Under the pieces are notes generated by a model. The model was not told the origin of the DNA, ran no database searches, and worked only from the letters and a program-made list of their open reading frames with translations. From positions 1 through 45,479 of the forward strand of contig VGTL01000017.1 of the NCBI GenBank assembly GCA_016874675.1: a stretch of 45,479 nt of DNA. The letters are read 5' to 3'. This DNA comes from Methanobacteriota archaeon (GTDB lineage: Archaea > Thermoplasmatota > DTKX01 > VGTL01). The position numbers were made by a program, and so were the translations under genes. Below are positions 4,719 to 43,136 of the stretch, piece after piece (position 1 is the first letter of the stretch; each line of letters opens with the position of its first letter).

Positions 4719-4809
4719 GGAAAGGGGAGCGGGGAGCGGGCCGCGGGGAGCAGTGGACGACGGTCCTTTTCGTCGCTGCTCCCCGCTGCCCGCTCCCCGC
4801 TCCCTTCCC
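4719..4809. repeat. Intergenic hairpin element 2 (arms of GGGGAGC units)
   Basis: The left arm 4719-4753 is tandem 7-mers of the type GGGGAGC. The right arm 4776-4809 is its reverse complement with only two mismatches and one indel over about 35 bp. The central 22 nt (4754-4775) contains GGACGACGG and TTCGTC, resembling the cores of the other elements. It is the most perfect hairpin of the family in this window. It fills the gap between the CBS gene and glyS. Confidence 0.85.
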
Positions 4810-4837
4810 CACTCCGGTCAAAGGAGCGCGCTGACCC

Positions 4838-6553: not shown

Positions 6554-6587
6554 ACGGTCGCTTCCGGGGGACCGAAGGGGGCAGGCC

Positions 6588-6872
6588 CTAGCCGCCGTCA
6601 CCGCTCGCCGCCGGCGACCGCCGCGCTCTCTTATCGATGGCCGGGCTGACGGCGGGGACCGGCGGGTTGGGCGGTTCCTCGTCGTCGAACAGGAACAGTC
6701 CTTCGATTCCGGCCCCGAGCGCCTTCGAAACATCGTGCGCGAGCTTGAGGGAGGGGACGTATTTCCCGGCTTCCATGTAAAGAATCGTCTCTCGCCGGAC
6801 GCCCACCCTGCGAGCAAGTTCCTCCTGGGTCATGTCGTATCTGGCGCGGAACTCCTTGATTCTGGTCCTCAT
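6588..6872 (-). CDS. XRE-family helix-turn-helix transcriptional regulator
   Basis: The 94-residue protein opens with a Cro/C1-type helix-turn-helix: [20 protein letters not shown] followed by [17 protein letters not shown] (about residues 9-45). It resembles small archaeal regulators linked to DUF2178 membrane proteins. The ATG overlaps the stop of the upstream membrane protein by 4 nt (ATGA), so it is translated from the same operon. It probably represses this operon through the palindrome at 8054-8071; that link is inferred from operon structure. The tail after about residue 68 is proline- and charge-rich and probably disordered. The stop is TAG. Confidence 0.85.
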
Positions 6873-7549
6873 GGGACATCCGCCCCAGAGCGCGGTAGCG
6901 AAAAGTCCTCCCCCGCGTAATGCGTGTACAGGAGGAGTGTGGAATACGGTGCCACGCCGATGGTCAATCCAAGCACATCCCCGGCCGCAACGGGGATGCC
7001 TCTTGCGGCAAGGATGTTCGCGATTCCGTAAGATGCGAATAGCACCGCCAGGGTGATGTAAAATGCGTGCACGGTTGCCTTCCTGCTTATCGATAATATC
7101 CGCTCGTCATCGAGAGGACTGGTCCCGGTTCGCGCCTTTCCCACCCATTCCCGGGCGTCCTTGAGTATTGTCGCAAAAAGATACCCTATCAGACCGATGA
7201 ACGAGATGAAGAGAGGCGGGATACCACGTATCTGCGGGCATGATATGACAAAGACCGCCAGGTATGCCCCCAAGGCGATGCATAGCCCGAAGTAGAATCT
7301 TGATTCGATGAGCGGTTTCATCGCTTTCTGTCTCTCTTCCGCCCGGTCTAACCACCCCGGCCCCCACTTCCTCATCGCCAGGCCGAATATCCCGACCAGC
7401 GCGAAGAATGCAATGAACCCAAGGAAGGATTGATCGATTTCTCCGGCCCGCCTCCAGTGCAGGACGATAACCAGGACACATGACGCGATCCCGGCGACCG
7501 CAACGAACAACATTGAACGCTCAACTTGAGTTCTCTCTTTCTGGTCCAT
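6869..7549 (-). CDS. DUF2178-like membrane protein (longer paralogue)
   Basis: The 226-residue protein has about six hydrophobic segments in two groups of three, separated by the cytosolic-looking segment [21 protein letters not shown]. The DER motif followed by a helix ([19 protein letters not shown]) recalls DUF2178 membrane proteins, which commonly sit beside XRE regulators. The function of that family is unknown. The gene is the second of a three-gene operon: 15 nt after the 148-residue paralogue and overlapping the regulator gene by 4 nt. It may sense or respond to membrane stress, but nothing in the sequence shows a ligand. Confidence 0.65.
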
Positions 7550-7564
7550 ATGGCATTCCTCGCA

Positions 7565-8011
7565 TCAGTCCGGCGTCCCTTTGCGACCGTAGTACACGGC
7601 GAATAATATCATGCTGAGGAAAATGACTGCGATGAGAACGATCAATACATTCATGGCAGAAAGGATGTTTTTCAGGGGGGATGCCAGTGTCAAAATGATC
7701 AGGACCCCTATTGCCAGTGCCGTAACCTGAAGGGATTTCAGCATCGCCTGCTTTGCCACGGCATTTGTACGTTCGTCCTGAAGAGGTTCCGGTTCGCGGA
7801 GCGCCCTTTCCTTCCAGTTCCTGCCCGCCATCCAATAGGCGCCAAGAAATATTGCGAGCGCCGCGGTCCCTCCGGCAATCATCCCGAAAAAGGAAAAGTC
7901 GGACCTGCCGTTCATCGCTCCGACGGCCAAGAAAACGACGAGAAGGCAGATGAAAACGACAGCCAACCCGGGCGCCTGCTTGCGGAAGTCGGGAACCCCG
8001 CGGTTCTCCAT
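7565..8011 (-). CDS. DUF2178-like membrane protein (shorter paralogue)
   Basis: The 148-residue protein has two N-terminal transmembrane segments (about residues 15-32 and 41-60), a cytosolic stretch carrying LQDERTNAVAKQAMLKS, and two further segments. The DER-helix motif parallels the one in the downstream 226-residue protein, so the two are related. It is the first gene of the operon. Its leader of about 37 nt contains GGATGTGAG just before the ATG, a plausible ribosome binding site. Its function is unknown. Confidence 0.65.
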   Translation of the reverse strand: MENRGVPDFRKQAPGLAVVFICLLVVFLAVGAMNGRSDFSFFGMIAGGTAALAIFLGAYWMAGRNWKERALREPEPLQDERTNAVAKQAMLKSLQVTALAIGVLIILTLASPLKNILSAMNVLIVLIAVIFLSMILFAVYYGRKGTPD

Positions 8012-8053
8012 TTATCTCACATCCCATTCCCATGTTATGTAAATCCAATATGA

Positions 8054-8082
8054 TGTTAGAATGTTCTAACACCTATTTATAT
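8054..8082 (-). promoter_or_regulatory. Promoter and operator palindrome of the DUF2178-XRE operon
   Basis: The reverse-strand TATA box ATATAAATA is at 8074-8082. Immediately downstream, 8054-8071 is TGTTAGAA-TG-TTCTAACA, a perfect 8-bp palindrome with a 2-nt centre. It lies between the TATA box and the expected start of transcription near 8050, a classic position for a repressor that blocks RNA polymerase recruitment. The XRE regulator encoded by the operon is the obvious candidate ligand. Confidence 0.7.
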
Positions 8083-8105
8083 GCTTTGCCTTCCAATCGA
8101 CACAT

Positions 8106-8135
8106 CTATATGTATGTATGTTAATATATTATAAC
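8106..8135 (+). promoter_or_regulatory. Promoter and operator-like palindrome of vapBC-2
   Basis: TCTATATG at 8106-8113 lies 23-30 nt before the vapB ATG, as for a leaderless transcript. The 16 bp directly before the ATG (8120-8135, GTTA...TAAC ends) form an imperfect palindrome over the expected start site, a plausible site for antitoxin autorepression. Confidence 0.5.
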
Positions 8136-8354
8136 ATGGGCGTCAAGACCATATCGGTGAACGACGAGGTCTACCGGACCCTCGCGCAGGTGAAGAGGGC
8201 CGACGAGAGCTTCAGCGACCTCATCCGGAGGCTGCTGTCCGCGAAAGGCGCTTCGCTCAAGGACTATTTCGGCGCGCTCAAGGACAGCAAGTGCCTCGAC
8301 GGAATCGACGAGCATGTCAGGGCCGTCCGCTCCAGCGCGAAGGTGCGTGGATGA
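8136..8354 (+). CDS. VapB-type antitoxin, DUF217/UPF0330-like
   Basis: The 72-residue protein begins MGVKTISVNDEVYRTLAQVK and continues with SFSDLIRRLL, the signature of the archaeal antitoxin family DUF217, which binds DNA through an N-terminal ribbon and masks a VapC partner with its C-terminus. The start at 8136 is preferred over an in-frame ATG at 8118 that would fall inside the promoter. It overlaps the toxin gene by 4 nt (ATGA), so the two are translationally coupled. Confidence 0.82.
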   Translation: MGVKTISVNDEVYRTLAQVKRADESFSDLIRRLLSAKGASLKDYFGALKDSKCLDGIDEHVRAVRSSAKVRG

Positions 8355-8734
8355 ACCTCCTGGATACGAGCTTCGTCGTGGACCTTCTCCGCGGCGACGA
8401 GACGGTCTCGGGCTTCCTGGATTCGGAATCGGCCACGACCGCCGTCACCTATTTCGAGATGATGTCCTTCCGCAAACGGCGCAAGCTGAAGGCCGAGGGC
8501 GCGATTTTGGAAAGGTTTTTTTCCGAGGTCCCGGTGCTCCCGTTCACGCGCGCCGCGGCCGAGGAAGCCTCGGCGATCACCGCCCGGCTCATGGACATCG
8601 GCAGGCCGGTCAACGCGCTCGATGTCCTCATTGCCAGCATCGCCCTCTCGGAAAGGGCCGAGAGGCTGATCACCCGTGATCGCGACTTCCTCGAGATCGC
8701 GAAGATCTGCGATCTCTCGGTGACGATCTATTGA
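8351..8734 (+). CDS. vapC: VapC-type PIN-domain ribonuclease toxin
   Basis: The 127-residue PIN protein has Asp5 in LLDTSFVVD, Glu36 in TYFEMMS, Asp91 in NALDVLIASIAL and Asp110 in TRDRDF, the full acidic set of an active VapC. It shares little with the VapC at 2171-2584 beyond these motifs, so the two modules belong to different subfamilies. The ATG at 8351 overlaps the antitoxin stop. It is followed by hairpin element 3 and then the 23S rRNA promoter. Confidence 0.88.
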   Translation: MNLLDTSFVVDLLRGDETVSGFLDSESATTAVTYFEMMSFRKRRKLKAEGAILERFFSEVPVLPFTRAAAEEASAITARLMDIGRPVNALDVLIASIALSERAERLITRDRDFLEIAKICDLSVTIY

Positions 8735-8738
8735 AAAA

Positions 8739-8881
8739 GGCGCAGGGCGCAGGGCGCAAGGCTTGAGGCGCATGGGGGAAGGCGCAAGGGAAAAGGGGTA
8801 CGGGGCAAGCGACGACGACGATTCGTCCGTCCCTTGCCCCTCGCCCCCTGCGCATTGCGCCATGCGCCTTTGCACATTGCC
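8739..8881. repeat. Intergenic hairpin element 3 (arms of GGCGCAG/GGCGCAA units)
   Basis: The left arm (8739-8810) begins with tandem GGCGCAG 7-mers and continues with GGCGCAT and GGCGCAA units. The right arm (8831-8881) carries TGCGCAT and TGCGCC units that pair with it. Next to the centre GGGGCAAG (8802-8809) pairs exactly with CTTGCCCC (8833-8840), and the centre holds GACGA and TCGTC. The element lies between the vapC-2 stop and the rRNA promoter, with the TATA box starting 7 nt after its end. Confidence 0.8.
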
Positions 8882-13043: not shown

Positions 13044-13253
13044 ATGGCCGGTCCGCGGAGGCGCAGGCATCGTTTTGAGAGGAAGGGGCACAGGAAGCCC
13101 CGGAAGGCCGGGAAGGCCCGCCGAACGAAGAAGCCCTCCGCGGAGAAGCCGGCGGCGCCGGAGAACGGCGAGTCGGTCCGCCACTACGGGGACGCCTGGG
13201 ACTACGAGAACTACGAGAAGGAGAGCCACAAGGCGAGCGGGCTTTTCCTGTGA
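13044..13253 (+). CDS. Small basic hypothetical protein
   Basis: The 69-residue protein has a strongly basic N-terminal half (clusters such as RRRRHR, RKGHRKPRK, RRTKK) and an acidic/aromatic C-terminal third (HYGDAWDYENYEKE). I recognise no family. The basic half suggests nucleic acid or ribosome binding; the acidic tail may shield it. The ATG at 13044 is preferred over 13023 because of the TATA box position. It has its own promoter and stands alone between the DsrE-like gene and the PhoU regulator. High lysine/arginine content in GC-rich DNA can arise by chance, so a real gene is likely but not certain. Confidence 0.6.
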   Translation: MAGPRRRRHRFERKGHRKPRKAGKARRTKKPSAEKPAAPENGESVRHYGDAWDYENYEKESHKASGLFL

Positions 13254-13358
13254 GCGGCTCGCTGGCAGGCGCTATCCGCTCTATTGTCATATATATATTG
13301 AATTTAAAATATAGAAAATCTTATTATTCGCAACAACCCATATTCCACCCGAGAAGAT

Positions 13359-14366
13359 ATGGACATCCGCAAGGTCCAGTTCACGGGCGGCTCGTCGTAC
13401 GTGCTCACATTGCCCAAGGAATGGGTCAAGGCACTGAACATCAAGAAGAACGACTCGCTGGGCCTCATAACCCAGCCCGACGGGACACTGGTCGTCACGA
13501 CGCGCACGACCGAGGCGCGGCCCCAGCGCAACAAGGAGATCAAGGTCGAGGATGTCCGGGACCAGGCACACCTCTTCCGGGTGCTCATCGGCTCCTACAT
13601 CATGGGCTACACCACGATAACCCTCCGCTCCTCCGGCCGGATGCCGGCGCAGGTGCGCGAGACCGTGATGAAGTTCGCCCAGATGACCATCGGGCCCGAG
13701 GTCATGGAGGAGAGCGCCTCCTCCATCACCATCAAGGACCTGCTCAACCCGGCCGAGATGCCCTTCGACAAGACCATCCGGAGGATGCACATCCTTGTCC
13801 GGACGATGCACGAGGACGCCTTCACCGCCATGGACAAGCGCGACAGGGCCCTGGCCGAGGACGTCCTGCGGCGGGACACGGACATAAACCGGCTCAACTG
13901 GCTGGCGGCGCGCCAGCACAGCATGATGCTCTCCGACACCACGCTGGCAAGGCGGATGGGCATCTCGCTCGAGGACGCCGCCCACTGCTTCCTCATCGCG
14001 AGGATACTCGAGCGCATCGGGGACCACGGCACCCGGATAGCGAGATCGGTGCTCCTCCTCATGGAGAAGCGGCTGGAGAAGGACCTCCAGGCCGGCCTGA
14101 AAGAGGCCAGCGCCGAGTCGCTGGAACTCCTGAACGCCAGCGTGGAGAGCTGGTTCCGCCGGGACATCCGTTCGGCCAACCGGAGCCTGGACGGCCTGCC
14201 CAGCCTGATTGCCAAGTGCGACCGTATCAACCACTCCGCCCGCCGTGTCAAGAGCGAATACTCCATACCGGTGACGGACATATCGGAGAGCATCCGCAGG
14301 ACGGGCGAGTACGCCACGGACATCGCCGAGCTCGTTGTCAACAACCTGGTGCTCGGGGAGAAGTGA
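13359..14366 (+). CDS. AbrB/PhoU-domain regulator (phosphate uptake regulator family)
   Basis: The 335-residue protein starts with a SpoVT/AbrB-like swapped-hairpin domain (MDIRKVQFTGGSSYVLTLPK through about residue 48, including PKEWVKALNIKKND). It continues as two PhoU-like three-helix repeats, with the characteristic ARILERIGDHGTRIARS in the first and TGEYATDIAELVVN near the end. This AbrB-PhoU fusion is common in archaea, where it is thought to regulate phosphate uptake by binding DNA or metal clusters. No pst transporter gene is nearby. A TTTAAAATA stretch about 50 nt upstream is a likely TATA box. It is followed by hairpin element 4. Confidence 0.88.
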   Translation: MDIRKVQFTGGSSYVLTLPKEWVKALNIKKNDSLGLITQPDGTLVVTTRTTEARPQRNKEIKVEDVRDQAHLFRVLIGSYIMGYTTITLRSSGRMPAQVRETVMKFAQMTIGPEVMEESASSITIKDLLNPAEMPFDKTIRRMHILVRTMHEDAFTAMDKRDRALAEDVLRRDTDINRLNWLAARQHSMMLSDTTLARRMGISLEDAAHCFLIARILERIGDHGTRIARSVLLLMEKRLEKDLQAGLKEASAESLELLNASVESWFRRDIRSANRSLDGLPSLIAKCDRINHSARRVKSEYSIPVTDISESIRRTGEYATDIAELVVNNLVLGEK

Positions 14367-14371
14367 GCGAC

Positions 14372-14486
14372 GAATCCGGGTGCCGGGAGCCGGGAGCCGG
14401 GAACCGGGTGACGAAGCGTTCATCCCGGTACCCGGTCCCCGATACCCGGTCGTCAACCCGGCCCCCGGCCCCCGGCCCCCGGATTC
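14372..14486. repeat. Intergenic hairpin element 4 (arms of CCGGGNN units)
   Basis: The left arm (14376-14409) is five 7-mers of the form CCGGGTG, CCGGGAG and CCGGGAA. The right arm (14422-14482) carries complementary CCCGGNN units. The outermost 9 bp are perfect: GAATCCGGG (14372-14380) and CCCGGATTC (14478-14486). The core 14404-14427, read on the reverse strand, matches the core of element 7 (23838-23861) at 21 of 24 positions. The element sits between the phoU-like gene and the next TATA box. Confidence 0.8.
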
Positions 14487-14515
14487 ACACACCCCTCGCG
14501 CCTCGAAAACCAATC

Positions 14516-14523
14516 ATTATATA
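14516..14523 (+). promoter_or_regulatory. TATA box for the metalloprotease gene
   Basis: ATTATATA is only 8-15 nt before the ATG at 14531 but 26-33 nt before an in-frame GTG at 14549, so the leaderless start is probably the GTG. Confidence 0.5.
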
Positions 14524-14548
14524 TCCCAGTATGATTGAATCAAGCCTG

Positions 14549-17500
14549 GTGAGACTAGATAGGATTAATGGGCGGGGGCGGGGGTTGGCCGCCCTCCCGG
14601 TGCTGGGCATGCTGCTCCTGGGCGCTCTCTCGGTGCTTCCGGTCGCCCCGGGGGACGAGCCGCCGCCGGGCTTCTCGTGCGCCCTGAGGGTGGCCCCGGA
14701 CGGCAGCCTCTACCCCACACCCGTGAACTTCACCTTGCCCGACCTGTCCGGGGCCGAGAGGGCCGACCAGGGAAGGGGCCTCTACTGCAACATAATAAAC
14801 CAGAGCGGCCGCGTCATCCCCGCCGAGACGCTGCGCAGCCTCGACGAGAACTTTACCCTCTACATATGGCCCAACGTGACCGCCGCCTTCGGCACCCCGC
14901 CGTACTCGAAGATAAACATCATCATCGTCAACCAGGACGGCATGGGAGGGGTGGCCGGCTACTTCAGCTCGGGGGACCCGGACGCCATCTACCTCGACTA
15001 CGACGACCTGGGGCTAGACCTGGACGTCACCGCCCACGAGTTCCAGCACCTCATCCACAACTCCAAGGACCCCGGCGAGACCATCTGGCTCAACGAGGGC
15101 TGCTCGGAGTGCGCCATCTACGTCGCCTATGGCGGCGGCAACCCCGGCCTGACCAGCCATTTCATGTCGTACGGCTTGGACACCGACAACGACTTCACCG
15201 CCTGGAACACGGTCAGCGACTATGGCGGGGCCGGCCTGTGGACCATCTACAACTACGAGCGCTACGGCGGCAACGACTTCACGAGGGCCCTCGTGGCCGA
15301 CCAGGCCAGGGGCGTCCAGTCCTACAACAACCGGCTGGCTTTCAAGGACGAGACCTTCACCGGCGCGTTCAGGAAGTGGGTGGTCGCCAACTGGCTCAAC
15401 AACGCCTCCGTGGACCAGGGCGAGTGGGGCTACCGGGGCGTCTGGAACTACGTCGGCCACACCTTCCTCTTCAAGGACTACCCGATGACCTGCTCCTCGG
15501 CGGTCCAGCAGGCCAACGGCGCCGACTACATCCGGTTCGAGCCCGCGGTGTGGAACCAGAACGGGGGGGACCTCGAGGTCAACATCACGTTCACGAGCGG
15601 GACCGGCTACTGCGCCATGGCAATGGCGGCCCGGAGCCCCGTTGCGGACCGCGTGCTCGTCCCGACCATCACGGGGAACCGGGCGACGATGCTAGTGCCC
15701 AATCTCGGGGGGGATTACGCCGTCGCCGGGCTGGCCGTCTCCGGCCTCTCCGGCCCGTGCTCCTACACCTTCGAGGCCAGCATCATCGACATCACCCCGC
15801 CCAACACCACCGCCCGGGTGACGCCCCCCGCGCCCGACGGGAAAAACGGCTGGTACCGCCGCCTCCCAACGATAAGCTTCACGGTCAACGAGAACGCCAG
15901 CATATACTACGGCTGGGACGGCGGCGCCGGCACGAGATACTCGGCCCCCTTCAAGGCCCCCGAGGGGGTCCACGAGCTCTCCTTCCACGGGGAGGACCGC
16001 TACGGGAACGTCGAGCCCCCGAAGAGCCTAACGCTCAAGGTGGACACCATCGCCCCCGAGACCGTCCACAACATCACCCCCTCGGAGCCCGACGGGCTCA
16101 ACGGCTGGTACGTCAGCCCGGCCGAGATATCGTTGATCCCGGACACGCCCGGGGCCATCCTTTCCTGCGCCTGGGACGACGACGCCCTCCACGCCTACAC
16201 CGGGCCGATGCAGCTTCGCGAGGGCGTCCACCGGCTCAACTGGCGCGCCGAGGACGAGGCGGGCAACCTCGAGCAGCTCAAGGGGGTCATAACCAGGCTG
16301 GACACCGGGTTGCCGACGGTGGACTATAACCTCTCCAGCGAGCCGGACGGCCAGAACGGCTGGTACCTCCGGGCGCCCACGATATACCTGTCGAGCGCCG
16401 ACCCCGGCAACCCGGTGATATACTACAGCTGGGACGGCGGAAACGTCACCGAGTACACCCGCGAGTTTAGGGCCCAGATGGGCCGCCACACGCTCGACTT
16501 CTACGCCCTGGACGAGGCCGGCAACCGCGGGCCGCCCTCGAGCCTGGTCGTGAAGCTGGACCCGGTCGCGCCCACCATGAGGGCCACAACCGGAATCCCC
16601 GCCCCGGACGGCAACGACGGCTGGTACCGCACCGAGACGGACCTCACCCTCTCGACGGACGAGGCCTACGGGGCCACCATCTACTACAGCTGGGACGAGG
16701 GCGCGGAGGTTCTGTACGACGCCCCGCTGCCCGTGCCCGAGGGCGAGCACTCCATCAGCTGCCGGGCCATCGACGAAGCCGGCAACCGGGGCAAGGTCCT
16801 CACCCTGGCCTTCAAGATGGACTCCCTGCCGCCCGTCACCCAGCTGGGCATCAACCCGGAGGACCTGGGCGCGGCATGGTACCACGAGCGGCCCCGGGCG
16901 ACGCTTCGGACCGAGCCGGGGGCGTCCGTCATGTTCTCGGTCGACAACACGACCTTCCACAGGTACGTCCGGCCGGTGGAGATCGGCGAGGGGGTCACCT
17001 ACCTGACCTACTTCTCCCAAGACGTCGCCGGCAACAACGAGACGCCCTCGGTCCGCCGCTTCCGGGTGGACACCGTGCCCCCGGGCGTGCTCCTCAACCT
17101 GAGCAGCACGCGGGTGCTCACCGGCGAGCAGGTCAACCTCTCCGCCGCGGCCTACGACGAGAACGGCATCACGGAGTACCTCTTCGACTTCGGCGACGGC
17201 ACCACGAGCGCCTGGACGCGCTACGGCAACCTCTCCCGGAGCTTCGGCGCGCCCGGCAACTACGGCATCCGGGTCAAGGTGCGCGACGGCTCCGGGCTGG
17301 AGGCGACCTCGGAGCCGGTGCTCCTCAACGTGAGCGCCCCGCCCAGGAAGCAGGTCTCCCCGCCGCCGACGATCGGGGACCTGATGGCCTCCATACCGCC
17401 GCTGTTCTACTACCTCGTGTTCGCGCTGGTGGTCGCGGCCGTCGCGGGCGCCGGGCTGCGCCGGGTGGCGAGGGCCCGGCGCCGCCGGAGGCTCTACCGC

Positions 17501-18061
17501 GAGGTGGAGCGGGCGGAGGCCGAGCGGGAGGCCCGGCACACGCGCGAGATAGACGAGGAGGTGTCGGCGGACTACTACGGGGGCGACCGGGCGCTCTCCT
17601 CGGGCGGGTTCCGCGGCGGGCTGCCTGCGGGCCCCGCCGGCGGTCCGGGCGCGGGGGGCGGGTTCAGAAGCGTCCCGCCCGGCGCGTTCGCGGGCGAGCC
17701 GGCCGGCCGGCCGTCGCCCTCCTTCCGGCCTCCCCCGGACGCTCCGGCGGAACGCGCCGGCATCCCGGAGGCCCCGGCGACGACGGCCGCCCCCGACGGG
17801 CCGGCGGGTCCCGACTTCGGCGACGCCAGGCTCGTCGAGCGGTCCGAGCCCGAGCTCGTCCTCGAGGCCGAGATAGGCTCGAGCAAGCCCATATGGGCCC
17901 AGTCGAGCAAGGACACGGCGCAGAGGTCATCGAGGCCGGCCCGGATGCCCGAAAGCGCCCTGGCCGGGGGGCGCCCGGCCCGCCGGCCCGCCGGCGGCAG
18001 CCCGGACCTGAACCGGGAGCTCGACGATATCTTGAAACGGCTGAATCGGGATAATACGTAA
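14549..18061 (+). CDS. Membrane-anchored surface metalloprotease with Ig-like and PKD repeats
   Basis: The protein has about 1170 residues. Numbering from the in-frame ATG at 14531, an N-terminal hydrophobic signal segment (LAALPVLGMLLLGALSVL) leads to a zinc-protease domain with HEFQHLIH at 169-176 and NEGCSE at 188-193, supplying gluzincin-type ligands (two His plus a Glu). Next come five repeats of about 86 residues, four with the DGxNGWY or DGNDGWY motif and the fifth degenerate (AAWYHERP), each with a YYSWDGG-like strand. A PKD domain (YLFDFGDGTTSAW) follows, then a single transmembrane helix near 955-977 and a basic stop-transfer. The cytosolic tail is about 190 residues, low in complexity and rich in Pro and Gly. 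It is probably an extracellular protease fixed to the cell surface. It may start at GTG 14549 or ATG 14531. Confidence 0.85.
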   Translation: MRLDRINGRGRGLAALPVLGMLLLGALSVLPVAPGDEPPPGFSCALRVAPDGSLYPTPVNFTLPDLSGAERADQGRGLYCNIINQSGRVIPAETLRSLDENFTLYIWPNVTAAFGTPPYSKINIIIVNQDGMGGVAGYFSSGDPDAIYLDYDDLGLDLDVTAHEFQHLIHNSKDPGETIWLNEGCSECAIYVAYGGGNPGLTSHFMSYGLDTDNDFTAWNTVSDYGGAGLWTIYNYERYGGNDFTRALVADQARGVQSYNNRLAFKDETFTGAFRKWVVANWLNNASVDQGEWGYRGVWNYVGHTFLFKDYPMTCSSAVQQANGADYIRFEPAVWNQNGGDLEVNITFTSGTGYCAMAMAARSPVADRVLVPTITGNRATMLVPNLGGDYAVAGLAVSGLSGPCSYTFEASIIDITPPNTTARVTPPAPDGKNGWYRRLPTISFTVNENASIYYGWDGGAGTRYSAPFKAPEGVHELSFHGEDRYGNVEPPKSLTLKVDTIAPETVHNITPSEPDGLNGWYVSPAEISLIPDTPGAILSCAWDDDALHAYTGPMQLREGVHRLNWRAEDEAGNLEQLKGVITRLDTGLPTVDYNLSSEPDGQNGWYLRAPTIYLSSADPGNPVIYYSWDGGNVTEYTREFRAQMGRHTLDFYALDEAGNRGPPSSLVVKLDPVAPTMRATTGIPAPDGNDGWYRTETDLTLSTDEAYGATIYYSWDEGAEVLYDAPLPVPEGEHSISCRAIDEAGNRGKVLTLAFKMDSLPPVTQLGINPEDLGAAWYHERPRATLRTEPGASVMFSVDNTTFHRYVRPVEIGEGVTYLTYFSQDVAGNNETPSVRRFRVDTVPPGVLLNLSSTRVLTGEQVNLSAAAYDENGITEYLFDFGDGTTSAWTRYGNLSRSFGAPGNYGIRVKVRDGSGLEATSEPVLLNVSAPPRKQVSPPPTIGDLMASIPPLFYYLVFALVVAAVAGAGLRRVARARRRRRLYREVERAEAEREARHTREIDEEVSADYYGGDRALSSGGFRGGLPAGPAGGPGAGGGFRSVPPGAFAGEPAGRPSPSFRPPPDAPAERAGIPEAPATTAAPDGPAGPDFGDARLVERSEPELVLEAEIGSSKPIWAQSSKDTAQRSSRPARMPESALAGGRPARRPAGGSPDLNRELDDILKRLNRDNT

Positions 18062-34674: not shown

Positions 34675-37600
34675 CTAGTCCTCCGGGCCGTCCTCCAGGT
34701 CCTCGGCGCTCACGCTGGATACGACCTCCATCCGGCCGGACGGCCCCCTCCCGGAGGCCCCGTCGGACTCCTCGGTGGCCGGTGCACCGGGGCCTGCCTC
34801 CGGGCCGCCGGCATCCGCCTCCGGGCCGCCGGGGCCCGCCTCCCGGTCCCCGCCCTCGCCCCCGGGCAGAGGGGCTTCCGGCTCGGGCTCCCCCGCCCGC
34901 CTTCTCCGCCCCATCATGTAGACACCGGAGGTGGCGAGCGCCGCGAGGGCCACGATCACCACGATAATATAAGGCGCCCCCTCGACGGAAAGGAGGGACC
35001 CGCCCGGGGAGGCAGGCGCGCTCCTGGTCCGGAACGTCTGGTCGGGACCGGCGGACGGCCCGTTCCCGGAGGCGTCCGTCGCCTTGACGCTGAAATGGTA
35101 GGTGGTCCCGGCCGCCAGGCCGGGTATGGTTATCCGGTGGACGGTCCGGTACTGCGGCGAGGCCGCCGTCTTCCCGTAGGCGTCGGTCGTCCCGTACTCG
35201 AGAAGGACCGCGCCCGGCTCGTCGAGCACGACCTCGACAGTGACATTGTCCGTCCCGGCCAAAAGAACGCGGCATTCGCGAATCGACGGCGGGGCTGCGT
35301 CCCCGACCGTCGCGGTGGTGAATGTCAGGTCCCCGCTGAACGACGGGCCGTTGCCGGAGGCGTCCGTCCCGCCCACGCGGAAGTGGTACTCCCGGCCGGG
35401 GAGCAGGCCGGTGAGCAGCACGACGTGGGATACCTCCAGCCGCCCGGAGCTCAGGACGCGCGTGTAGTTCGAATCCGGCCCGCACTCCAGCCGGCTGTCG
35501 GCGGGCTCGTCCGTGGTCCAGCTCACCACCGCCAGCGTATCCGTCACGCCGGTCACGGAGACCCCGCTGATCACCGGCGGCGCGGTGTCCGGCGAGGAGA
35601 GCGTGGCGAACGTCAGGAGCCCGCTCTGGCCGGGGCCGTTGCCGGAGGGGTCGGTGGACCCGGCCCTGAAGTAGTACACCGTCGAGGCTGCCAGGCCGAC
35701 CAGTAGCACCGAGTGCGACTGCACGAGGGTCGGGTCGGCGGCGCGCGTGCCGAGCTCCCTCCCGGTCCCGTACTCGACCGCGCTGTCGGCCGGCTCGTCG
35801 GTGTCCCAGAGCACGAGGGCGGTCCGGTCCGAGAGGGCCGCCACCCGGACGTTCGAGACCACCGGGGCCCGGCGGTCCTCCCGCTTCTGGGTCCGGAACG
35901 CCACATCGGGCGAGAAGGAGGGCCCGTTGCCGTAGAGGTCCCGCCCGCTGATGCGCAGGTGGTACTCGGTGGCGGCCTGGAGCCCTGTGAGGGTCAGGCT
36001 GTGCTGCGTGGAGTAGGCGGCGTCGGAGAGCGAGCGCCCGTAGGCGGTGGAGGTGCCGTACTCCACGAGGCCGTCCGAGGGCTCGTCGGTGGTCCAGGTG
36101 ACCACGGCGATGGTCTGGGCCACGCCCGAGACCTGCACCACGCCGATGGTCGGCCGGGTGGTGTCCAGAAGGATCGTGTCGCTCGCAGGCCCGGCGACGT
36201 TCCCGGCCCGGTCGCGCACGCGGAAGTGGACGATCCGCGTCCCGTCGCCGGGCGAGAAGGTGAAGGTCGAGGCGCCCGAGTAGGGCATCCATCCGGTCCA
36301 GAGCGCGCCGTCCTCGCTGAAGGCCATCTCCCCGACCCCCGAGGCGGGGTCCGGGTCCAGGGCCACAAGATACAGCGCCACCGTGGCGTTGGTCGCATAG
36401 GCGGCACCGCCGGCGATGGTCACCGAGAGCGAGACCGGGCGCACCGTGTCGAGCAGGATGCCGTCGCTTCCCGCGCTCCCGACGTTGCCGACGCGGTCCC
36501 GGACCTTGACATAGACGGTCTTCGTGCCGTCGGCCCCGGAGAGCGTCCAGGCGCGCGTGGAGTTGAAAGGCTCCCAGGCCTCGTAGGAGAGGCCGTCGCG
36601 GCCCAGGGCCATCTCGGAGAGCCCCGAGCCCGGTTCGGCGTCCGAGGCCTGTATCGAGAGCTCCACGTCCGTGCGGTTGGTCCACTCGATCCCGGAGTTT
36701 ATGGTCACGGCGACGCCCGAGGGCGCCATGGTGTCCAGCACGATGGTGGCTTCGGCCGCGGGGCAGGCGTTCTCCACCCGGTCGCGCAGATGGACCCGGA
36801 CGGTCCTCGTACCGTCGCTCCCGGCCAGCGTGATCCCCCAGCTGCCGGCGTGCTGCTCCCAGGGGGACCACTCCCCGTCGTCCACCCGGTGGCGCCGCTG
36901 GTGCAGGCCCGAGCCGGGCGACGGGTCGGACGCCGAGAGCGATATCCGCACGTTGGGGCTCGCCGTGAAGGGCGCGCCCGAGTCTATGCTCAGGTTGGCA
37001 ACGATTGGCGGCGCGGTGTCTATGAAGTAGGGGCCGCGGTGGACCGCCCCGGTCGCCCAGTTGCCGGCTGTGTCCCTCGTCCGGATGTGGAAGTACCAGC
37101 CGTCGCCGTCCGCGAGCGGCGCGCTCGCGGCGCTCAGGGTGTCCGCCCCGTCCGTCACGACCTCGGCGGGCAGGCTGTCGGCCGAATTGTCCCAAAGCAG
37201 GGCGTAGCCCTCAACGCCGCTGATGGAGGCGTCCGCCGCCGACCAGTTCATCTCCACGGTGTTGCGGGCGCTCCAGACCTGCGCCCTGTGGGAGCGGCTC
37301 TCGACCACGAGCGGGTTCTTTGGAGGGCTGGAGTCTATCCAGAACGGCCCGAGCGTGGCGGCGTCCGTCGCCCAGTTCCCGGCGCGGTCGAGGGCCCGGA
37401 TGTGGAAGTAGATCGCGTCGCTGTCGGGCATCGGCGGGCTCGTGGCCGAGGCGGCCTCGGCGCCCAGGTCCATCGTCGCGTCCGGGATGGTGCCCGGGCT
37501 CGTGTCCCAGACGATGGAGAACCCCGCGTAGCCGCTGAGGCGGCCGCCGCCGTCGGCGACGGACCAGGCGACGTCGATGGTGGGGTCGTTGGACCAGGTC

Positions 37601-39900
37601 GAAACCCCGTGGCTTCCGCTCGTTATCGCAACCGGGTTGGCCGGGGGAGAGGTGTCTATCCAGAAGGGCCCGATATGGGAGGCGGTCTGGTTCCAGTTCC
37701 CGGCGTTGTCCCGGGTGCGGATGTGGAAGTAGTGGCCGGAGCCGTCGGCCAGCGGGGGGCTTTGGGCCGAGCCGACGTCGCGGTCGCAGTCCTTGACCTC
37801 GTCGGGAACGGTGTCCGGCGAGGCGTCCCAGGCGTAGGAGAAGCCCTCCACTCCGCTCAGGGAGCCGTTGGAATCCCTCCACTGCACGTCCACCGTGCCG
37901 TCGTTGGACCACACGCCGGGGGAGCGGTCGCTCGAGAGCGCCAGGGGGTTGAACGGCGGCGTGGCGTCGATGAGCAGCGGCCCGAAGTGGGCCGCTCCGG
38001 GCGCCCAGTTGCCCGCCTCGTCCCGGGTCCGGATGTGGAAGTACCACAGGCCGTCGGGGAAGGCCGGGCCGGTGGCGCAGCTCTCGGAGGCGTTGTGCTC
38101 CTTGACCGTGTCCGGAATCGTGGATGGGGAGCCGTCCCAGGCCACCGAGTAGCCGTTCAGCCCGGAGACGGAGGCGTCGGCGCCGGTCCAGTTCACATTG
38201 ACGGTCGTGACATTGCTCCAGACGTTCACCGCGTGCGTGGGGCTCTGGACGGTCGGGTTGGAGGGCGGCGTGGCGTCGACCCAGAAGGGGCCCAGGTGGG
38301 CGGCGTCGGCGGCGGCGTTGCCGGCGAGGTCGAGGGCCCGGATGTGGAAGTAGACGCTCTTGCTGTCGGACATCGCCGGGCTGGTCCGGCTCGAGACCGT
38401 CGAATCGATCTCGCGGGTGGTGTCGGGCAGGGTGGCGGGCGAGTAGTCCCAGCTCAGCGAGAAGCCGTACAGGCCGCTGCCGGAGTCCGAGGCGCCGCTG
38501 AAGCTCACGTCGATGGTGTTGTCGGTGGACCACTGGGCCACGGTGTGGCTCGTGCTGGACACCGACGTGGGATTGGACGGGGGCGTGGCGTCGATTTTTA
38601 TCGTGCGGGCGAGGCACCAGTTGCTCGGGTCGTCGTCGGAGTCCCACACCCGCGCGCGCCAGTAGTAGGTGCCGTCCGCGATGGCCGATGCTGGCGTGTG
38701 GGATGCCTGCGCCGAGGAGACCTTGCCGCTGTCGTGCTCGGGGGAGCCGAAGTCGCTCCTGTCGTCCACCTGGACCTGGTAGGCGGTCTGGCTGTCCTGC
38801 GCGTTCGTGTCCCTGAACGTCCAGGTGAAGGTGGGCCGGCCGGTCGTGCTCCAGCCGCTGTCGGCCGGCGAGCCCAGCGTCGGGGCGTCCGGGGCGGTGT
38901 TCCATCCCTCGGCGAGGCCGAACTTGAGCACTGTCGAGCTGGTCGCGCCGGTGTACCACATGAGATAGGCCGTGCCGTTGTGGACGACGCACGATGAAAG
39001 CACATCATGGGACTCCCAGCCACCCCCCGTCGGGCTGAGCACCGGATTGCTGGCGTACTTGGTCCAGGACTTTCCATCGCTGGAGGTCGCATGGCCGATG
39101 CCCCAGTTCTGGCCGCTGTAGCCGCTGTACCACATCCGGTAGGTGCCGGACATGTTGAGAACGCAAGGTATGGTGACGTGGACATCGTCCCAATTATTGT
39201 TCGCGCCTAGAGTGAGCACCGGGTTGTTGGCATACTTTGTCCAGCTGATCCCGTCGCTGGAGGTCGCGTATCCTATTCTTTGGGTTGATCCGTCCTCTCC
39301 CGCATACCACATCTTGTAGCCTTCCGCGTCCTTCAGCACGCAGGGATCCAGCACCATGTTATCGTCCCAGGCGCCGTTCGAACCTATCGTCAGGACGGGG
39401 TTGCCGGAATACTTCGACCAGGAGAAACCGTCGCTCGAGGTCGCGTAGCCAATTTTCCAATTCGCCCCGTCGTATCCGATGTACCACATCTTATACGTTG
39501 TTCCGTCCAACATCACGTATGACGCGGCAACATGTTTTGAGTCCCAGTTGCCCGATGTGCCGACGTCCAAGACGGGGTTGGAAGCGTACTTCGTCCAGGT
39601 CTTGCCGTCGTCCGATGTCGCCAGGCCGATCTTTTGGACCGAACCGGAGTATCCGGCATAGTACATCCGGTATCCGGTCCCGTTGTACTGGACGGAGTTG
39701 CAGTAGGTCCAGGATGAATCGTCATCCCAGGCGCCGTTCGGCCCCGCGCTCAGAACAGGGTTGCTGGCATAGCGAATCCATTTCACGGGCGAGGTGGCCA
39801 CCGCATCCGCCGGTTGAGTGGACATGAACGGTCCGATGCTGGCCAGCATCAGGAACGCGACTGCAATGGCGATTGGCCTATTTTTTCGCTCCTTCACCAT
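34675..39900 (-). CDS. Giant surface protein with five-bladed propeller and repeated FN3/Ig-like domains
   Basis: The 1741-residue protein begins with a signal peptide. Five propeller blades of about 60 residues follow, each with NPVL, WDD, YKMWY and IGYATSSDGISW-type motifs (about 45-345), as in GH43/GH32/GH130-like folds. Then come one FN3-like domain (YYWRARVWDSDDD), five repeats of about 104 residues (FHIRTRDEAGNWA), three of about 95 residues (GTKTVYVKVRDRVGNV), four FN3-like domains (TWTTDEP, VEYGTSTAYG), one transmembrane helix and an acidic tail of about 85 residues. It is probably an extracellular sugar-binding or adhesion protein; no catalytic residues can be assigned. It is a paralogue of the adjacent 779-residue gene. 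A TTTAATA box lies about 33-40 nt upstream. Confidence 0.85.
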   Translation of the reverse strand: MVKERKNRPIAIAVAFLMLASIGPFMSTQPADAVATSPVKWIRYASNPVLSAGPNGAWDDDSSWTYCNSVQYNGTGYRMYYAGYSGSVQKIGLATSDDGKTWTKYASNPVLDVGTSGNWDSKHVAASYVMLDGTTYKMWYIGYDGANWKIGYATSSDGFSWSKYSGNPVLTIGSNGAWDDNMVLDPCVLKDAEGYKMWYAGEDGSTQRIGYATSSDGISWTKYANNPVLTLGANNNWDDVHVTIPCVLNMSGTYRMWYSGYSGQNWGIGHATSSDGKSWTKYASNPVLSPTGGGWESHDVLSSCVVHNGTAYLMWYTGATSSTVLKFGLAEGWNTAPDAPTLGSPADSGWSTTGRPTFTWTFRDTNAQDSQTAYQVQVDDRSDFGSPEHDSGKVSSAQASHTPASAIADGTYYWRARVWDSDDDPSNWCLARTIKIDATPPSNPTSVSSTSHTVAQWSTDNTIDVSFSGASDSGSGLYGFSLSWDYSPATLPDTTREIDSTVSSRTSPAMSDSKSVYFHIRALDLAGNAAADAAHLGPFWVDATPPSNPTVQSPTHAVNVWSNVTTVNVNWTGADASVSGLNGYSVAWDGSPSTIPDTVKEHNASESCATGPAFPDGLWYFHIRTRDEAGNWAPGAAHFGPLLIDATPPFNPLALSSDRSPGVWSNDGTVDVQWRDSNGSLSGVEGFSYAWDASPDTVPDEVKDCDRDVGSAQSPPLADGSGHYFHIRTRDNAGNWNQTASHIGPFWIDTSPPANPVAITSGSHGVSTWSNDPTIDVAWSVADGGGRLSGYAGFSIVWDTSPGTIPDATMDLGAEAASATSPPMPDSDAIYFHIRALDRAGNWATDAATLGPFWIDSSPPKNPLVVESRSHRAQVWSARNTVEMNWSAADASISGVEGYALLWDNSADSLPAEVVTDGADTLSAASAPLADGDGWYFHIRTRDTAGNWATGAVHRGPYFIDTAPPIVANLSIDSGAPFTASPNVRISLSASDPSPGSGLHQRRHRVDDGEWSPWEQHAGSWGITLAGSDGTRTVRVHLRDRVENACPAAEATIVLDTMAPSGVAVTINSGIEWTNRTDVELSIQASDAEPGSGLSEMALGRDGLSYEAWEPFNSTRAWTLSGADGTKTVYVKVRDRVGNVGSAGSDGILLDTVRPVSLSVTIAGGAAYATNATVALYLVALDPDPASGVGEMAFSEDGALWTGWMPYSGASTFTFSPGDGTRIVHFRVRDRAGNVAGPASDTILLDTTRPTIGVVQVSGVAQTIAVVTWTTDEPSDGLVEYGTSTAYGRSLSDAAYSTQHSLTLTGLQAATEYHLRISGRDLYGNGPSFSPDVAFRTQKREDRRAPVVSNVRVAALSDRTALVLWDTDEPADSAVEYGTGRELGTRAADPTLVQSHSVLLVGLAASTVYYFRAGSTDPSGNGPGQSGLLTFATLSSPDTAPPVISGVSVTGVTDTLAVVSWTTDEPADSRLECGPDSNYTRVLSSGRLEVSHVVLLTGLLPGREYHFRVGGTDASGNGPSFSGDLTFTTATVGDAAPPSIRECRVLLAGTDNVTVEVVLDEPGAVLLEYGTTDAYGKTAASPQYRTVHRITIPGLAAGTTYHFSVKATDASGNGPSAGPDQTFRTRSAPASPGGSLLSVEGAPYIIVVIVALAALATSGVYMMGRRRRAGEPEPEAPLPGGEGGDREAGPGGPEADAGGPEAGPGAPATEESDGASGRGPSGRMEVVSSVSAEDLEDGPED

Positions 39901-42317
39901 AACACCGATATAAAGAATTGCTAAACCCTCTATTAAACCTATCGTCGATTGCTCCCGGGCGGCGGGGCTTCCTGCTCCTAACCCACGGCGCGCCCTCTCC
40001 GCCTCATCAGGTAGACACCGGCGCTGGCGAGCGCCACCAGGCATACGACCGCCACGAGTATGTACGGAGCGCCCTCCGACGACAGAAGCGACACACCCGG
40101 TCCGGGCGGGTCGCCCCTGGTCCGGAACGTCCGGTCGGGACCGGTGGACGGCCCGCTGCCCGCGGTGTCCGTCGCCTTGATTCTGAAATGGTAGGTGGTC
40201 CCGGGCGACAGGCCGGGAATGGCAATCTGGTGCACCGTCTCGTACTCCGGCGAGGCCACGGTCTTGCCATAGGCGTTTGTCCTCCCGTACTCGACCACGA
40301 CCGCGCCCGGCTCGTCGAGCACGACCTGGACGGTCACATTGTCCGTCCCGGCCGAAAGGACGCTGCTCTCCCGGATCGACGGCGGGGTGGAGTCGATGAA
40401 CAGCGGCCCGAAGTGGGCCGCGTCGGACGCCCAGTTGCCCGCCTCGTCACTGGTCCTGATGTGGAAGTACCAGAGGCCGTCGGGGAGGGTGGGGCCGGTG
40501 GCGCAGGTCTCGGAGGCGTTGTGCTCCTTAACCGCGTCCGGAATCGTGGACGGGGAACCGTCCCAGGCCACCGAGTAGCCGTTCAGCCCGGAGATGGAGG
40601 CGTCGGCGCCGGTCCAGTGGACCTTGACAGTCGTGACATTGCTCCAGACGTTCACTGCATGGGTGGAGCTGGAGACCGTCGGGTTGGTGGGCGGCGCGGT
40701 GTCGACCCAGAAGGGGCCAAGGTGGGCCGCGTCGGGGGCCGCGTTGCCGGCGACGTCCAGGGCCCGGATGTGGAAGTAGATGCTCTTGCTGTCGGACATC
40801 CCCGGGCCGGTCAGGCTAGATTCCGAAGTGCCGATTTCACGGGTGGTGTCCGGCAGGATGGAAGGTGAGGGGTCCCAACTCAATGAGAACCCGTCCAGGC
40901 CGCTGCCGGAGTCCGAGGCGCCGCTGAAGCTCACGTCGATGGTGTTGTCGGTGGACCACCGGGCCACGGTGTGGCTCGGGCTGGACAGGGAGGTGGGATT
41001 GGACGGAGGCGTGGCGTCTATCTTGATCGTGCGGGCGATGCACCAGTCGCTGGTATCGTCGTTGGAGTCCCACACCCGGGCGCGCCAGTAATAGGTCCCG
41101 TCCGCAATGGCGGAGGCGGGCGTGTGGGAGGTGTCGGCCGAGGAGACCTTTCCGCTGTCGTGCTCTGGCGAGCCGAAGTCGCTCCTGTCGTCCACCTGCA
41201 CCTGGTAGGCGGTCTGGCGTTCCTGCGGGTCCGTGTCCCTGAACGCCCAGGTGAAGGTGGGCTGGCCGGTCGTCGTCCAGCTGTCGTCGGCTGGGGAGTC
41301 AGGGGTCGGGGGCTCCAGGGCGGTGTTCCATCCCTCGGCGTAGCCGAACTTCAGCGTGGTACCGCTCGCACCGGTGTACCACATGAGATAGGTTGTGCCG
41401 TTGTGGACGACGCACGAGGACAGCACATCATGGGCTTCCCAGCCACTCCCCGTCGGGCTGAGCACAGGATTGTTGGCGAACTTGGTCCAGGATATGCCAT
41501 CGCTGGAGGTGGCGTGGCCTATGGCCCAGTTCTGGCCACTGTAGCCGCTGTACCACATCCGATAGGAGCCAGAAATATGCAGAATGCAGGGTATGGTCAC
41601 GTGAGAATCGTCCCAGCCGGTGTTCGCGCCCAGAGCGAGGACCGGGTTGTTCGCATGTTTGGTCCACTCGATTCCATCGCTCGAGGTCGCATATCCGATT
41701 CTCTGGATTGAGCCGTCCTGCCCCGCATACCACATCTTGTAGCCCTCCGCGTGCTTCAACACGCAGGGGTCCAGCACCATGTTGTCGTCCCAGGCGCCGT
41801 TCGACCCTATCGTCAGGACCGGGTTGCCGGAATACCTCGTCCAGGAGATTCCATCGCTTGAGGTGGCGTAACCTATTCTCCAATGCAATCCGTCGTAACC
41901 GATATACCACATCTTGTAGGTCGCCCCGTCAAGCATCACATACGAGGCCGCGACATCATGGGAATCCCAGCTGCCCGGCGCGCCGAGGTCCAGGACCGGG
42001 TTGGAAGCGTGCTTCGTCCAGGATTTACCGTCGCCCGAGGTCGCCAGGCCGATCCTTTGATGCGAACCGTCATACCCGGCGTAGTACATCTTGTAGCCTG
42101 TCCCGTCGTTCAGAACGGAATTGCAGTATGTCCAGGAGGGATCGTCGTCCCAGGCGCCGTTCGGTCCGGCGCTGAGAACGGGGTTGTCGGCGTAGCGAAT
42201 CCATTTCACGGGCGAGGCGGCCGCCGCGGCGGCAGGTTGCGTGGACATCAACGGCCCGATGTACGCAAGCAACAGGAAAACGAATGCAAATGCAATATAC
42301 CGCCGCTTTCTCCCCAT
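37950..42317. repeat. Tandem duplication spanning the two propeller genes
   Basis: The coding segments 40390-42317 and about 37950-39900 encode the same domain order with high protein identity, including the signal peptide, and their promoters share a TTTAATA box. This is best explained by tandem gene duplication followed by domain gain in the downstream copy (or loss in the upstream copy). Confidence 0.8.
39978..42317 (-). CDS. Surface protein with five-bladed propeller, short paralogue
   Basis: The 779-residue protein has a signal peptide, five propeller blades, one FN3-like domain (YYWRARVWDSNDD), two ~104-residue repeats, one FN3-like domain, a transmembrane helix and a very short basic tail (MRRRGRAVG). 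Each part is closely similar to the corresponding part of the downstream 1741-residue protein. The latter differs by an extra block of about 870 residues inserted exactly at a domain boundary, plus a long acidic tail. It starts at ATG 42317 with TTTAATA about 32-40 nt upstream, as in its paralogue. It is probably surface-exposed and sugar-binding, by fold resemblance only. Confidence 0.85.
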   Translation of the reverse strand: MGRKRRYIAFAFVFLLLAYIGPLMSTQPAAAAAASPVKWIRYADNPVLSAGPNGAWDDDPSWTYCNSVLNDGTGYKMYYAGYDGSHQRIGLATSGDGKSWTKHASNPVLDLGAPGSWDSHDVAASYVMLDGATYKMWYIGYDGLHWRIGYATSSDGISWTRYSGNPVLTIGSNGAWDDNMVLDPCVLKHAEGYKMWYAGQDGSIQRIGYATSSDGIEWTKHANNPVLALGANTGWDDSHVTIPCILHISGSYRMWYSGYSGQNWAIGHATSSDGISWTKFANNPVLSPTGSGWEAHDVLSSCVVHNGTTYLMWYTGASGTTLKFGYAEGWNTALEPPTPDSPADDSWTTTGQPTFTWAFRDTDPQERQTAYQVQVDDRSDFGSPEHDSGKVSSADTSHTPASAIADGTYYWRARVWDSNDDTSDWCIARTIKIDATPPSNPTSLSSPSHTVARWSTDNTIDVSFSGASDSGSGLDGFSLSWDPSPSILPDTTREIGTSESSLTGPGMSDSKSIYFHIRALDVAGNAAPDAAHLGPFWVDTAPPTNPTVSSSTHAVNVWSNVTTVKVHWTGADASISGLNGYSVAWDGSPSTIPDAVKEHNASETCATGPTLPDGLWYFHIRTSDEAGNWASDAAHFGPLFIDSTPPSIRESSVLSAGTDNVTVQVVLDEPGAVVVEYGRTNAYGKTVASPEYETVHQIAIPGLSPGTTYHFRIKATDTAGSGPSTGPDRTFRTRGDPPGPGVSLLSSEGAPYILVAVVCLVALASAGVYLMRRRGRAVG

Positions 42318-42440: not shown

Positions 42441-43136
42441 ATGGGCGAACCGACCCTGCTAGGCGACGACATCCGGATTGGCAAAGGTGTGACATTCGGC
42501 CAAAATGTGATCATTTACGATGGCGTCGAGATCGGCGACAATGTCACAATCGAGCACAACTGCATCATCGGCTACGACAGGATAACCCACCTTCGGAAAG
42601 ACTTCGACTTCCCGCCCAAGCCCTGGACGACCAGATTGGGGAACAACGTGCTCGTCCGGCCCAACGCCATCATCTACAAGCACTGCAAGATAGGCGACCA
42701 CTCCCAGATATGCAGCGGCGTCGTCATGCGGGAGTTCACCGAGCTCGGCCACCACAGCTACCTGGGCAACGGCACCTGCGTGGAGGGCTACACGAGGATA
42801 GGCAACCACACCGGCGTCCACACCCAGGTCCATGTGACGGCCAAGGTGATTATCGAGGACAAGGTCTTCATCGCGCCGCTGACGGTGATCTCCAACGGTT
42901 TCACGATCAACTGGCAGAGGCCCCATGTCCCCAGCGAGGAGATTGGGGCGAGGATTCGGCGCGGTGCCAGGATCGCCATCGGAGTCAAGACGCTGCCGGG
43001 AGTGGAGATCGGGCAGGAGGCGGTGGTCGGCGCAGGAGCCCTGGTGACGAAGGATGTCCCGCCGTTCAAGATAGCCATCGGGGTCCCGGCAAGGGTCGTG
43101 GGCGACGTGCCCGAATCCGAGCGGCTGCGCGACTGA
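42441..43136 (+). CDS. Left-handed beta-helix acyltransferase (nucleotide-sugar N-acyltransferase type)
   Basis: The 231-residue protein consists of hexapeptide repeats: GKGVTFGQNVIIYDGVEIGDNVTIEHN, then LGNNVLVRPNAIIYKHCKIGDHS, and a final VEIGQEAVVGAGALVTKDVPP with the family's closing GVPARVVGDV. The fold binds acyl-CoA as a trimer and modifies amino-sugars such as UDP- or dTDP-linked ones. The nearby epimerase and dehydrogenase-like genes support a nucleotide-sugar role. The ATG at 42441 has GGAGAT about 10 nt upstream. It is divergent from the propeller gene and convergent with the dehydrogenase-like gene. Confidence 0.88.
   Translation: MGEPTLLGDDIRIGKGVTFGQNVIIYDGVEIGDNVTIEHNCIIGYDRITHLRKDFDFPPKPWTTRLGNNVLVRPNAIIYKHCKIGDHSQICSGVVMREFTELGHHSYLGNGTCVEGYTRIGNHTGVHTQVHVTAKVIIEDKVFIAPLTVISNGFTINWQRPHVPSEEIGARIRRGARIAIGVKTLPGVEIGQEAVVGAGALVTKDVPPFKIAIGVPARVVGDVPESERLRD

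Follow-up and report, generated by a model that had tools for sequence, protein, structure and literature searches.

The locus studied here raises the question of how two giant archaeal surface proteins encoded side by side came to differ by a single block of modules, and what such a pair may do for the cell. We analysed the whole stretch of DNA around the two genes (the window, 45,479 nucleotides of contig VGTL01000017.1, assembly GCA_016874675.1). The same assembly carries a full-length archaeal SSU match (1506.7 bits), which supports an archaeal origin, as does an exact copy of a string that we take to be the archaeal 915-region SSU sequence.

The two genes, called LONG and SHORT below, follow one another in the same orientation on the minus strand, with SHORT first and LONG 77 bp after it, and their ORF ends were verified (LONG start 39900, MVKERK, and stop 34675; SHORT start 42317, MGRKRR). 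Their products are 65 % identical in the signal region, 84 % in the propeller, 81 % in the Ig domain, 84 % in R1 and 85 % in R2, and towards the C-terminus 73 % in the last F module and 63 % in the transmembrane (TM) region. Judged by the ORF ends and these domain-by-domain identities, LONG and SHORT are tandem paralogues that differ by one block, as the first-pass annotation had proposed. The TM segments were called by a simple hydropathy scan. Only LONG of the two has an extended acidic cytosolic tail, which is rich in Gly, Pro, Glu and Asp; it had been described as long, and its length is about 78 residues. The surroundings had been described as sugar-modification genes, which holds for the adjoining hexapeptide acyltransferase but not for a glycosyltransferase-like match, which stayed under the Pfam cut-off. 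A further large surface-type protein with Big_13, CHB_HEX_C and PKD matches and a Gly/Pro-rich C-terminal tail is encoded elsewhere in the window (13250-18061, plus strand).

Table 1 Features of the twin-gene locus, in window coordinates.
Feature	Position	Strand	Remarks
LONG surface protein, 1741 aa	34675..39900	-	signal, 5-bladed propeller, Ig, R1-R5, O1-O3, F1-F4, TM, acidic tail
SHORT surface protein, 779 aa	39978..42317	-	signal, 5-bladed propeller, Ig, R1-R2, one F, TM, short basic end
LONG propeller head	38905..39792	-	84 % identity to SHORT head
SHORT propeller head	41331..42215	-	profile match, structure model, fold match
LONG Ig_Rha78A_N-type domain	38596..38904	-	GC3 rise at about this border
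889-residue LONG-only block (R3-R5, O1-O3, F1-F3), LONG residues 644-1532	35305..37971	-	
F4 of LONG, membrane-proximal last F module	35026..35304	-	counterpart of the sole F of SHORT
Sole F module of SHORT	40119..40397	-	block absent at its 5' edge (junction)
LONG TM segment and acidic cytosolic tail	34678..35025	-	
DN-DM-DC soluble protein, 396 aa	33423..34613	-	61 bp past LONG stop
Hexapeptide-repeat acyltransferase-like gene, divergent neighbour	42441..43136	+	PF00132

The module labels could be refined by profile searches. The F modules are fibronectin type III domains (PF00041; 61.7 and 38.4 bits, cut-off 25), as they had been called at first, whereas the domain right after the propeller, given the same label, is of the Ig_Rha78A_N type. 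The domain of a "second type" is indeed a distinct module, present in LONG alone of the twins, and can now be named an O module, related to NCBIfam OmpL47 (NF047446; 45.7 bits, cut-off 40). Running the R, O and F profiles on the ORFs of loci from the same genome and its sister genome recovered, in addition to the twins, 15 family ORFs, of which C28a and C28b are near-identical to each other. In these proteins R or Ig modules come first, then O, and F, if present, stands last before the membrane, as it does in all ten family ORFs that have F, the twins included. Some F-less, O-bearing proteins (C57, C100, C69 and G001:C4) end in R-like modules placed after O, so that the R-O-F order, though strongly preferred, has exceptions. 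Short repeats encoding DxxPP mark the module edges.

Other stalk proteins of the genome (C50, C71, C19, C28, C13 and C69, with FG-GAP, Kelch or M6-peptidase heads) resemble the twins in their R/O/F or Ig modules, TM segment and tail; they differ in the head, and several of their tails end in CxxC zinc-ribbon-like stretches, recognised by eye, or in the DN domain described below. The FG-GAP-headed proteins L076, L078, L075, L083 and L084 have one or two such CxxC...CxxC stretches past the TM segment (by eye). At L077 (G000:C28) two near-identical FG-GAP-headed stalk genes (1-2775, cut by the contig start, and 4777-8781) lie 2 kb apart, a second tandem duplicate within the stalk family.

The gene just downstream of LONG encodes a product with no match in Pfam or NCBIfam. 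Iterated profiles divided it into three parts, DN (about residues 24-136), DM (about 190-292) and DC (about 293-372). DC, for which Pfam likewise gave no match, was found at 18 places in five genomes of the class, of which four were not judged because their ORFs are truncated at contig ends or shorter than 60 aa. In 12 of the 14 judged proteins, one of them propeller-headed, a hydrophobic segment lies 93-200 residues ahead of DC, which therefore forms the end of a cytosolic tail. Two soluble proteins make up the remainder, namely the product of the gene beside LONG and a DN-DM4-DC protein in G004, next to which no propeller gene occurs in the 19 kb viewed. The three DC copies of the own genome are in the tail of the propeller-headed protein C100, in the tail of the O-module protein C37 and in the gene beside LONG. 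When the window row was withheld from the profiles, the product of this last gene was still recovered among the 367 window ORFs, by DC with an E-value of 5.1e-15 (next best 0.22) and by DN with 2.9e-6 (next best 3.3), the window DN being a divergent one at 21.7 bits.

DN is common, with 74 matches in the five genomes and 21 in the own genome, and for this reason a DN neighbour alone means little. It is also found in the tails of the Kelch-headed C13 and the propeller-headed G002:C187; among 17 DN-bearing ORFs inspected from the 74 matches, six have one TM segment before DN, three have two and eight have none. Roadblock/LC7 (PF03259) matched two of nine DN sequences, and the likeness spans nearly the whole profile, yet the best match (E 0.004, 17.3 bits) lies under the Pfam cut-off of 23. 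Profile searches of the PDB with DN and DC returned nothing usable (query A3 best 0.059, A4 best 0.51), including a match of query A5 to a 49-residue stretch of "Tet4 Variant" (0.00069). The tails of LONG (VVSSVSAEDLEDGPED) and C100 (VVERTVSVSELERDAGEPD) have a motif in common; a loose pattern of it also hits a differing sequence in another DC protein, and we regard this likeness of the two tails as a hint only.

Three further arrangements of these domains were seen. The contig ends at L072 (G000:C24, 1-897) and L070 (G000:C100, 2450-5389) probably carry one half each of a single gene for a propeller-headed protein with DC at the end of its tail, and were kept apart here. L122 (4403-8587) and L123 (4888-8934) encode arrays of eight or nine DM copies with a single TM segment, L122 with an N-terminal DUF835. 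At L128 (4923-7322, plus strand) a soluble WD40/PQQ-propeller protein with a C-terminal DN is encoded in convergent orientation to the propeller surface gene of C100.

Since the gene lies 61 bp downstream of LONG and DC otherwise ends the cytosolic tails of surface proteins, the DN-DM-DC protein is probably an intracellular partner of LONG, acting as an adaptor or signal relay. The arrangement suggests that a surface protein is linked to a partner in the cytosol, and does not suggest an S-layer; the cell-surface layer envisaged earlier is not supported, the twins being single-pass membrane proteins with a possible cytosolic partner encoded downstream. The twins might instead be ordinary surface or adhesion proteins without signalling, the downstream gene being an unrelated neighbour. 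Surface proteins with Ig domains have been reported across many archaea (PMC8416519), and a domain that occurs 21 times in the genome, as DN does, could adjoin LONG by chance. DC, however, occurs just three times in the genome, and both of its other copies belong to the tails of surface proteins with R/O modules, one of which has a propeller head. We consider plain adhesion a real but less probable possibility.

Returning to the twins, we asked how the two stalks came to differ. The block is exactly R3-R5, O1-O3 and F1-F3, identified by profiles; these are the three repeats, three second-type and three FN3-like domains read from the sequence at first. It is one block placed exactly between corresponding domains, its edges fall on DxxPP module boundaries, and its length of 889 residues replaces the earlier estimate of about 870. 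In the DxxPP-encoding stretch the two LONG boundaries of the block have 12 of 15 bases in common (counted by eye), and these boundary repeats may offer a recombination route for a deletion. Within the block, R3-R5 are 40-57 % identical to other R modules, O1-O3 33-41 % to one another and F1-F3 31-48 % to other F modules; the best match to the block in the own genome has 47-59 % identity, and no close donor was found there. In the module trees, O1 of LONG groups with O1 of C100 and C57, both propeller-headed (UFBoot 98, aLRT 92.7). The pairing of LONG R4 with C100 R2 is weaker (UFBoot 68, aLRT 90; 0.90 in an earlier tree), as is that of LONG R5 with C100 R3 (UFBoot 92, aLRT 45; 0.95 in the earlier tree). 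The sole F of SHORT pairs with LONG F4 (100 %), and the two together tend to group with the last F of other proteins, with 0.84-0.90 in one tree and UFBoot 48 in another. The trees are short (about 100 columns), with weak support for the positional groupings of R and F, and were built from domain hits of at least 50 bits and at least 75 residues. An AlphaFold model of the block (mean pLDDT 34.9) was set aside.

By these comparisons the block is much older than the LONG/SHORT duplication. Because it is older, has no close donor and has an O1 that groups with those of C100 and C57, a single in-frame deletion in SHORT is probably the better account than a gain in LONG. The earlier reading, modular growth or loss, was right in kind, and the evidence favours its second branch. 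That LONG gained the nine modules after the duplication, by recombination with another stalk gene and with SHORT keeping the ancestral stalk, seems unlikely to us. In three other proteins (C19, G001:C29 and G001:C18) F directly follows R, making an R-R-F ancestor possible, and the DxxPP-encoding repeats at the module edges would permit either direction. A gain, however, would require a donor that contributed correctly ordered R, O and F modules as a single piece; the closest one in the genome reaches just 47-59 %, and the O1 of the block groups with those of two other propeller-headed proteins.

Intermediate forms, for which a survey of relatives had been recommended, did not turn up: neither an intermediate nor an orthologue of the pair was found in the genus (one genome), the family (two), the order (two) or the class (five), and among these genomes there is thus no outgroup that kept the ancestral form. 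The sister genome within the family gave no propeller comparable to that of the twins at E 1e-15. Across the phylum such a propeller was present in 10 of 389 genomes at E 1e-25, and the class and phylum propeller ORFs checked have other stalks or O-only stalks. A scan of genome contigs gave no archaeal relatives; its 26 loci comprise R-like repeats from bacteria and a single propeller, from Paceibacterota (L024).

The heads that both stalks hold had been annotated as propellers, which is confirmed here; of the two findings named at first as refuting that reading, a failure to predict propellers did not arise. Pfam GH130 (PF04041) matches part-length stretches of the twins with 37.6 and 42.8 bits against a cut-off of 26, and a PDB sequence search with the head led to GH130 and GH117 enzymes, with a phmmer value of 1.1e-7 to the beta-1,2-mannobiose phosphorylase 7fip. 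The head contains five sequence repeats. In the AlphaFold model of SHORT, which is weak as a whole (mean pLDDT 51), the blades reach about 70-83 and the Ig and R domains stay below 50; Foldseek and VIA-align matched the head (about residues 33-335) to five-bladed glycoside hydrolases along nearly the whole domain, with Z 25.9 to 5mt2 (rmsd 3.0, 278 aligned) and Z 25.5 to the GH130 enzyme 9fj8. By sequence and predicted model, the head has the five-bladed GH130/GH43/GH117 propeller fold.

Whether it is also an enzyme was judged from its conserved positions. In the HMMER alignment the EDPR stretch of 7fip, whose Asp we take to be the position of the GH130 catalytic acid, falls on TIPC in blade 4 of the head, a register set by the sequence alignment alone. 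When 14 related propellers were aligned, the only common positions were those that repeat in each blade; no family-wide catalytic acid was seen beyond these motifs, and the sole DP pair of the twins, in blade 3, is not kept. NCBIfam enzyme models gave 48-63 bits, far under their cut-offs (450). Since only blade-repeat positions are common to the 14 propellers and TIPC is aligned with EDPR, we read the head as a binding domain, probably non-catalytic and, by its fold, glycan-binding. An active cell-surface glycosidase or phosphorylase that the stalk merely positions would fit the fold, the above-threshold GH130 match and the likeness to 7fip, but the low enzyme-model scores, the TIPC aligned with EDPR and the unconserved DP pair make such an enzyme improbable.

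Synonymous divergence by domain, suggested at first as a means of comparing the paralogues, gave a gradient. dS between LONG and SHORT falls from 0.58 in the propeller to 0.20 in R2, and past the junction it is 0.29 and then 0.60; the fall towards the junction on the left side was reached in 0 of 5000 permutations. The gradient is confounded by a switch in GC3, which steps from about 0.76 to 0.96 at codon 302 in LONG and to 0.91 at codon 319 in SHORT, near the head/Ig border at 333/330 (0 of 500 permutations). Dating the block by synonymous divergence was rejected, as GC3 differs between head and stalk. Taken by part, the synonymous trend is significant in the head (p 0.012) but not in Ig-R2 (p 0.10) or F plus TM (p 0.19). 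Gene conversion homogenising the junction region, by which the gradient would date the block loss, would account for the left-side fall, but we find it hard to credit, because the GC3 step alone lowers synonymous change and the stalk has no significant trend. In four of 13 family entries GC3 is lower in the head than in the stalk (LONG, SHORT, C28b with 0.59 against 0.89, and C13 with 0.66 against 0.80), as if heads had been exchanged onto native stalks.

Taken together, we favour the following account, tandem twins with a non-catalytic glycan-binding head, stalk loss in SHORT and partnership of LONG with the DN-DM-DC protein, and hold it as a whole to be rather probable. An ancestral single-pass archaeal surface protein would have been duplicated in tandem to give LONG and SHORT, each with a glycan-binding propeller head held off the membrane by an Ig/FN3-like stalk of set order, R first and F nearest the membrane. 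Once duplicated, SHORT would have dropped nine consecutive modules in one in-frame deletion between DxxPP-encoding repeats, leaving two near-alike heads at two heights above the membrane. LONG would reach further and might pass tension or occupancy to the DN-DM-DC protein, and SHORT, without the extended tail, could serve adhesion or compete for ligand. More speculatively, and we would call this doubtful, the twins could belong to an archaeal receptor system not described before, in which swappable propeller heads sit on length-tunable R-O-F stalks with single-pass anchors, and cytosolic DN (possibly Roadblock-like), DC or zinc-ribbon domains are fused in the tail or encoded by a separate adjoining gene; LONG would be the tail-bearing receptor and SHORT a tail-less competitor for the same ligand or a decoy.

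Environmental sensing by many uncultured archaea is poorly known. DC, fused to membrane-anchored proteins in 12 of the 14 cases judged and here encoded by a separate gene, gives a concrete, testable link from outside to inside, and the twins offer a clean natural pair on the effect of stalk length, with nearly the same head at two heights, nine modules apart. In the open-licence literature searched we found no prior description of the twins' family, of a stalk order kept across several heads or of the DC tail domain (fused and separate), and none of fibronectin type III surface proteins in Thermoplasmatota.

Compared with known systems, the head is like the five-bladed GH130/GH43/GH117 enzymes (7fip, 9fj8, 5mt2) in fold, blade order and PF04041 match, but its identity with the best of them is 18-19 %, its blades repeat in a near-regular way and it has no family-wide acid beyond the repeat motifs, and unlike these enzymes it is displayed on a membrane-anchored stalk. 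Modular archaeal surface proteins are already known, and so is the shuffling of Ig domains, as in the VARTIG modules of Thermococcales (PMC8416519), whose C-terminal Ig region is hypervariable through exchange between strains; they are reported only from Thermococcales. VARTIG and the twins are alike in being large archaeal Ig-domain surface proteins with downstream genes and module shuffling, whereas the twins are set apart by the probable loss of a block in mid-stalk, the propeller head and the cytosolic domains involved.
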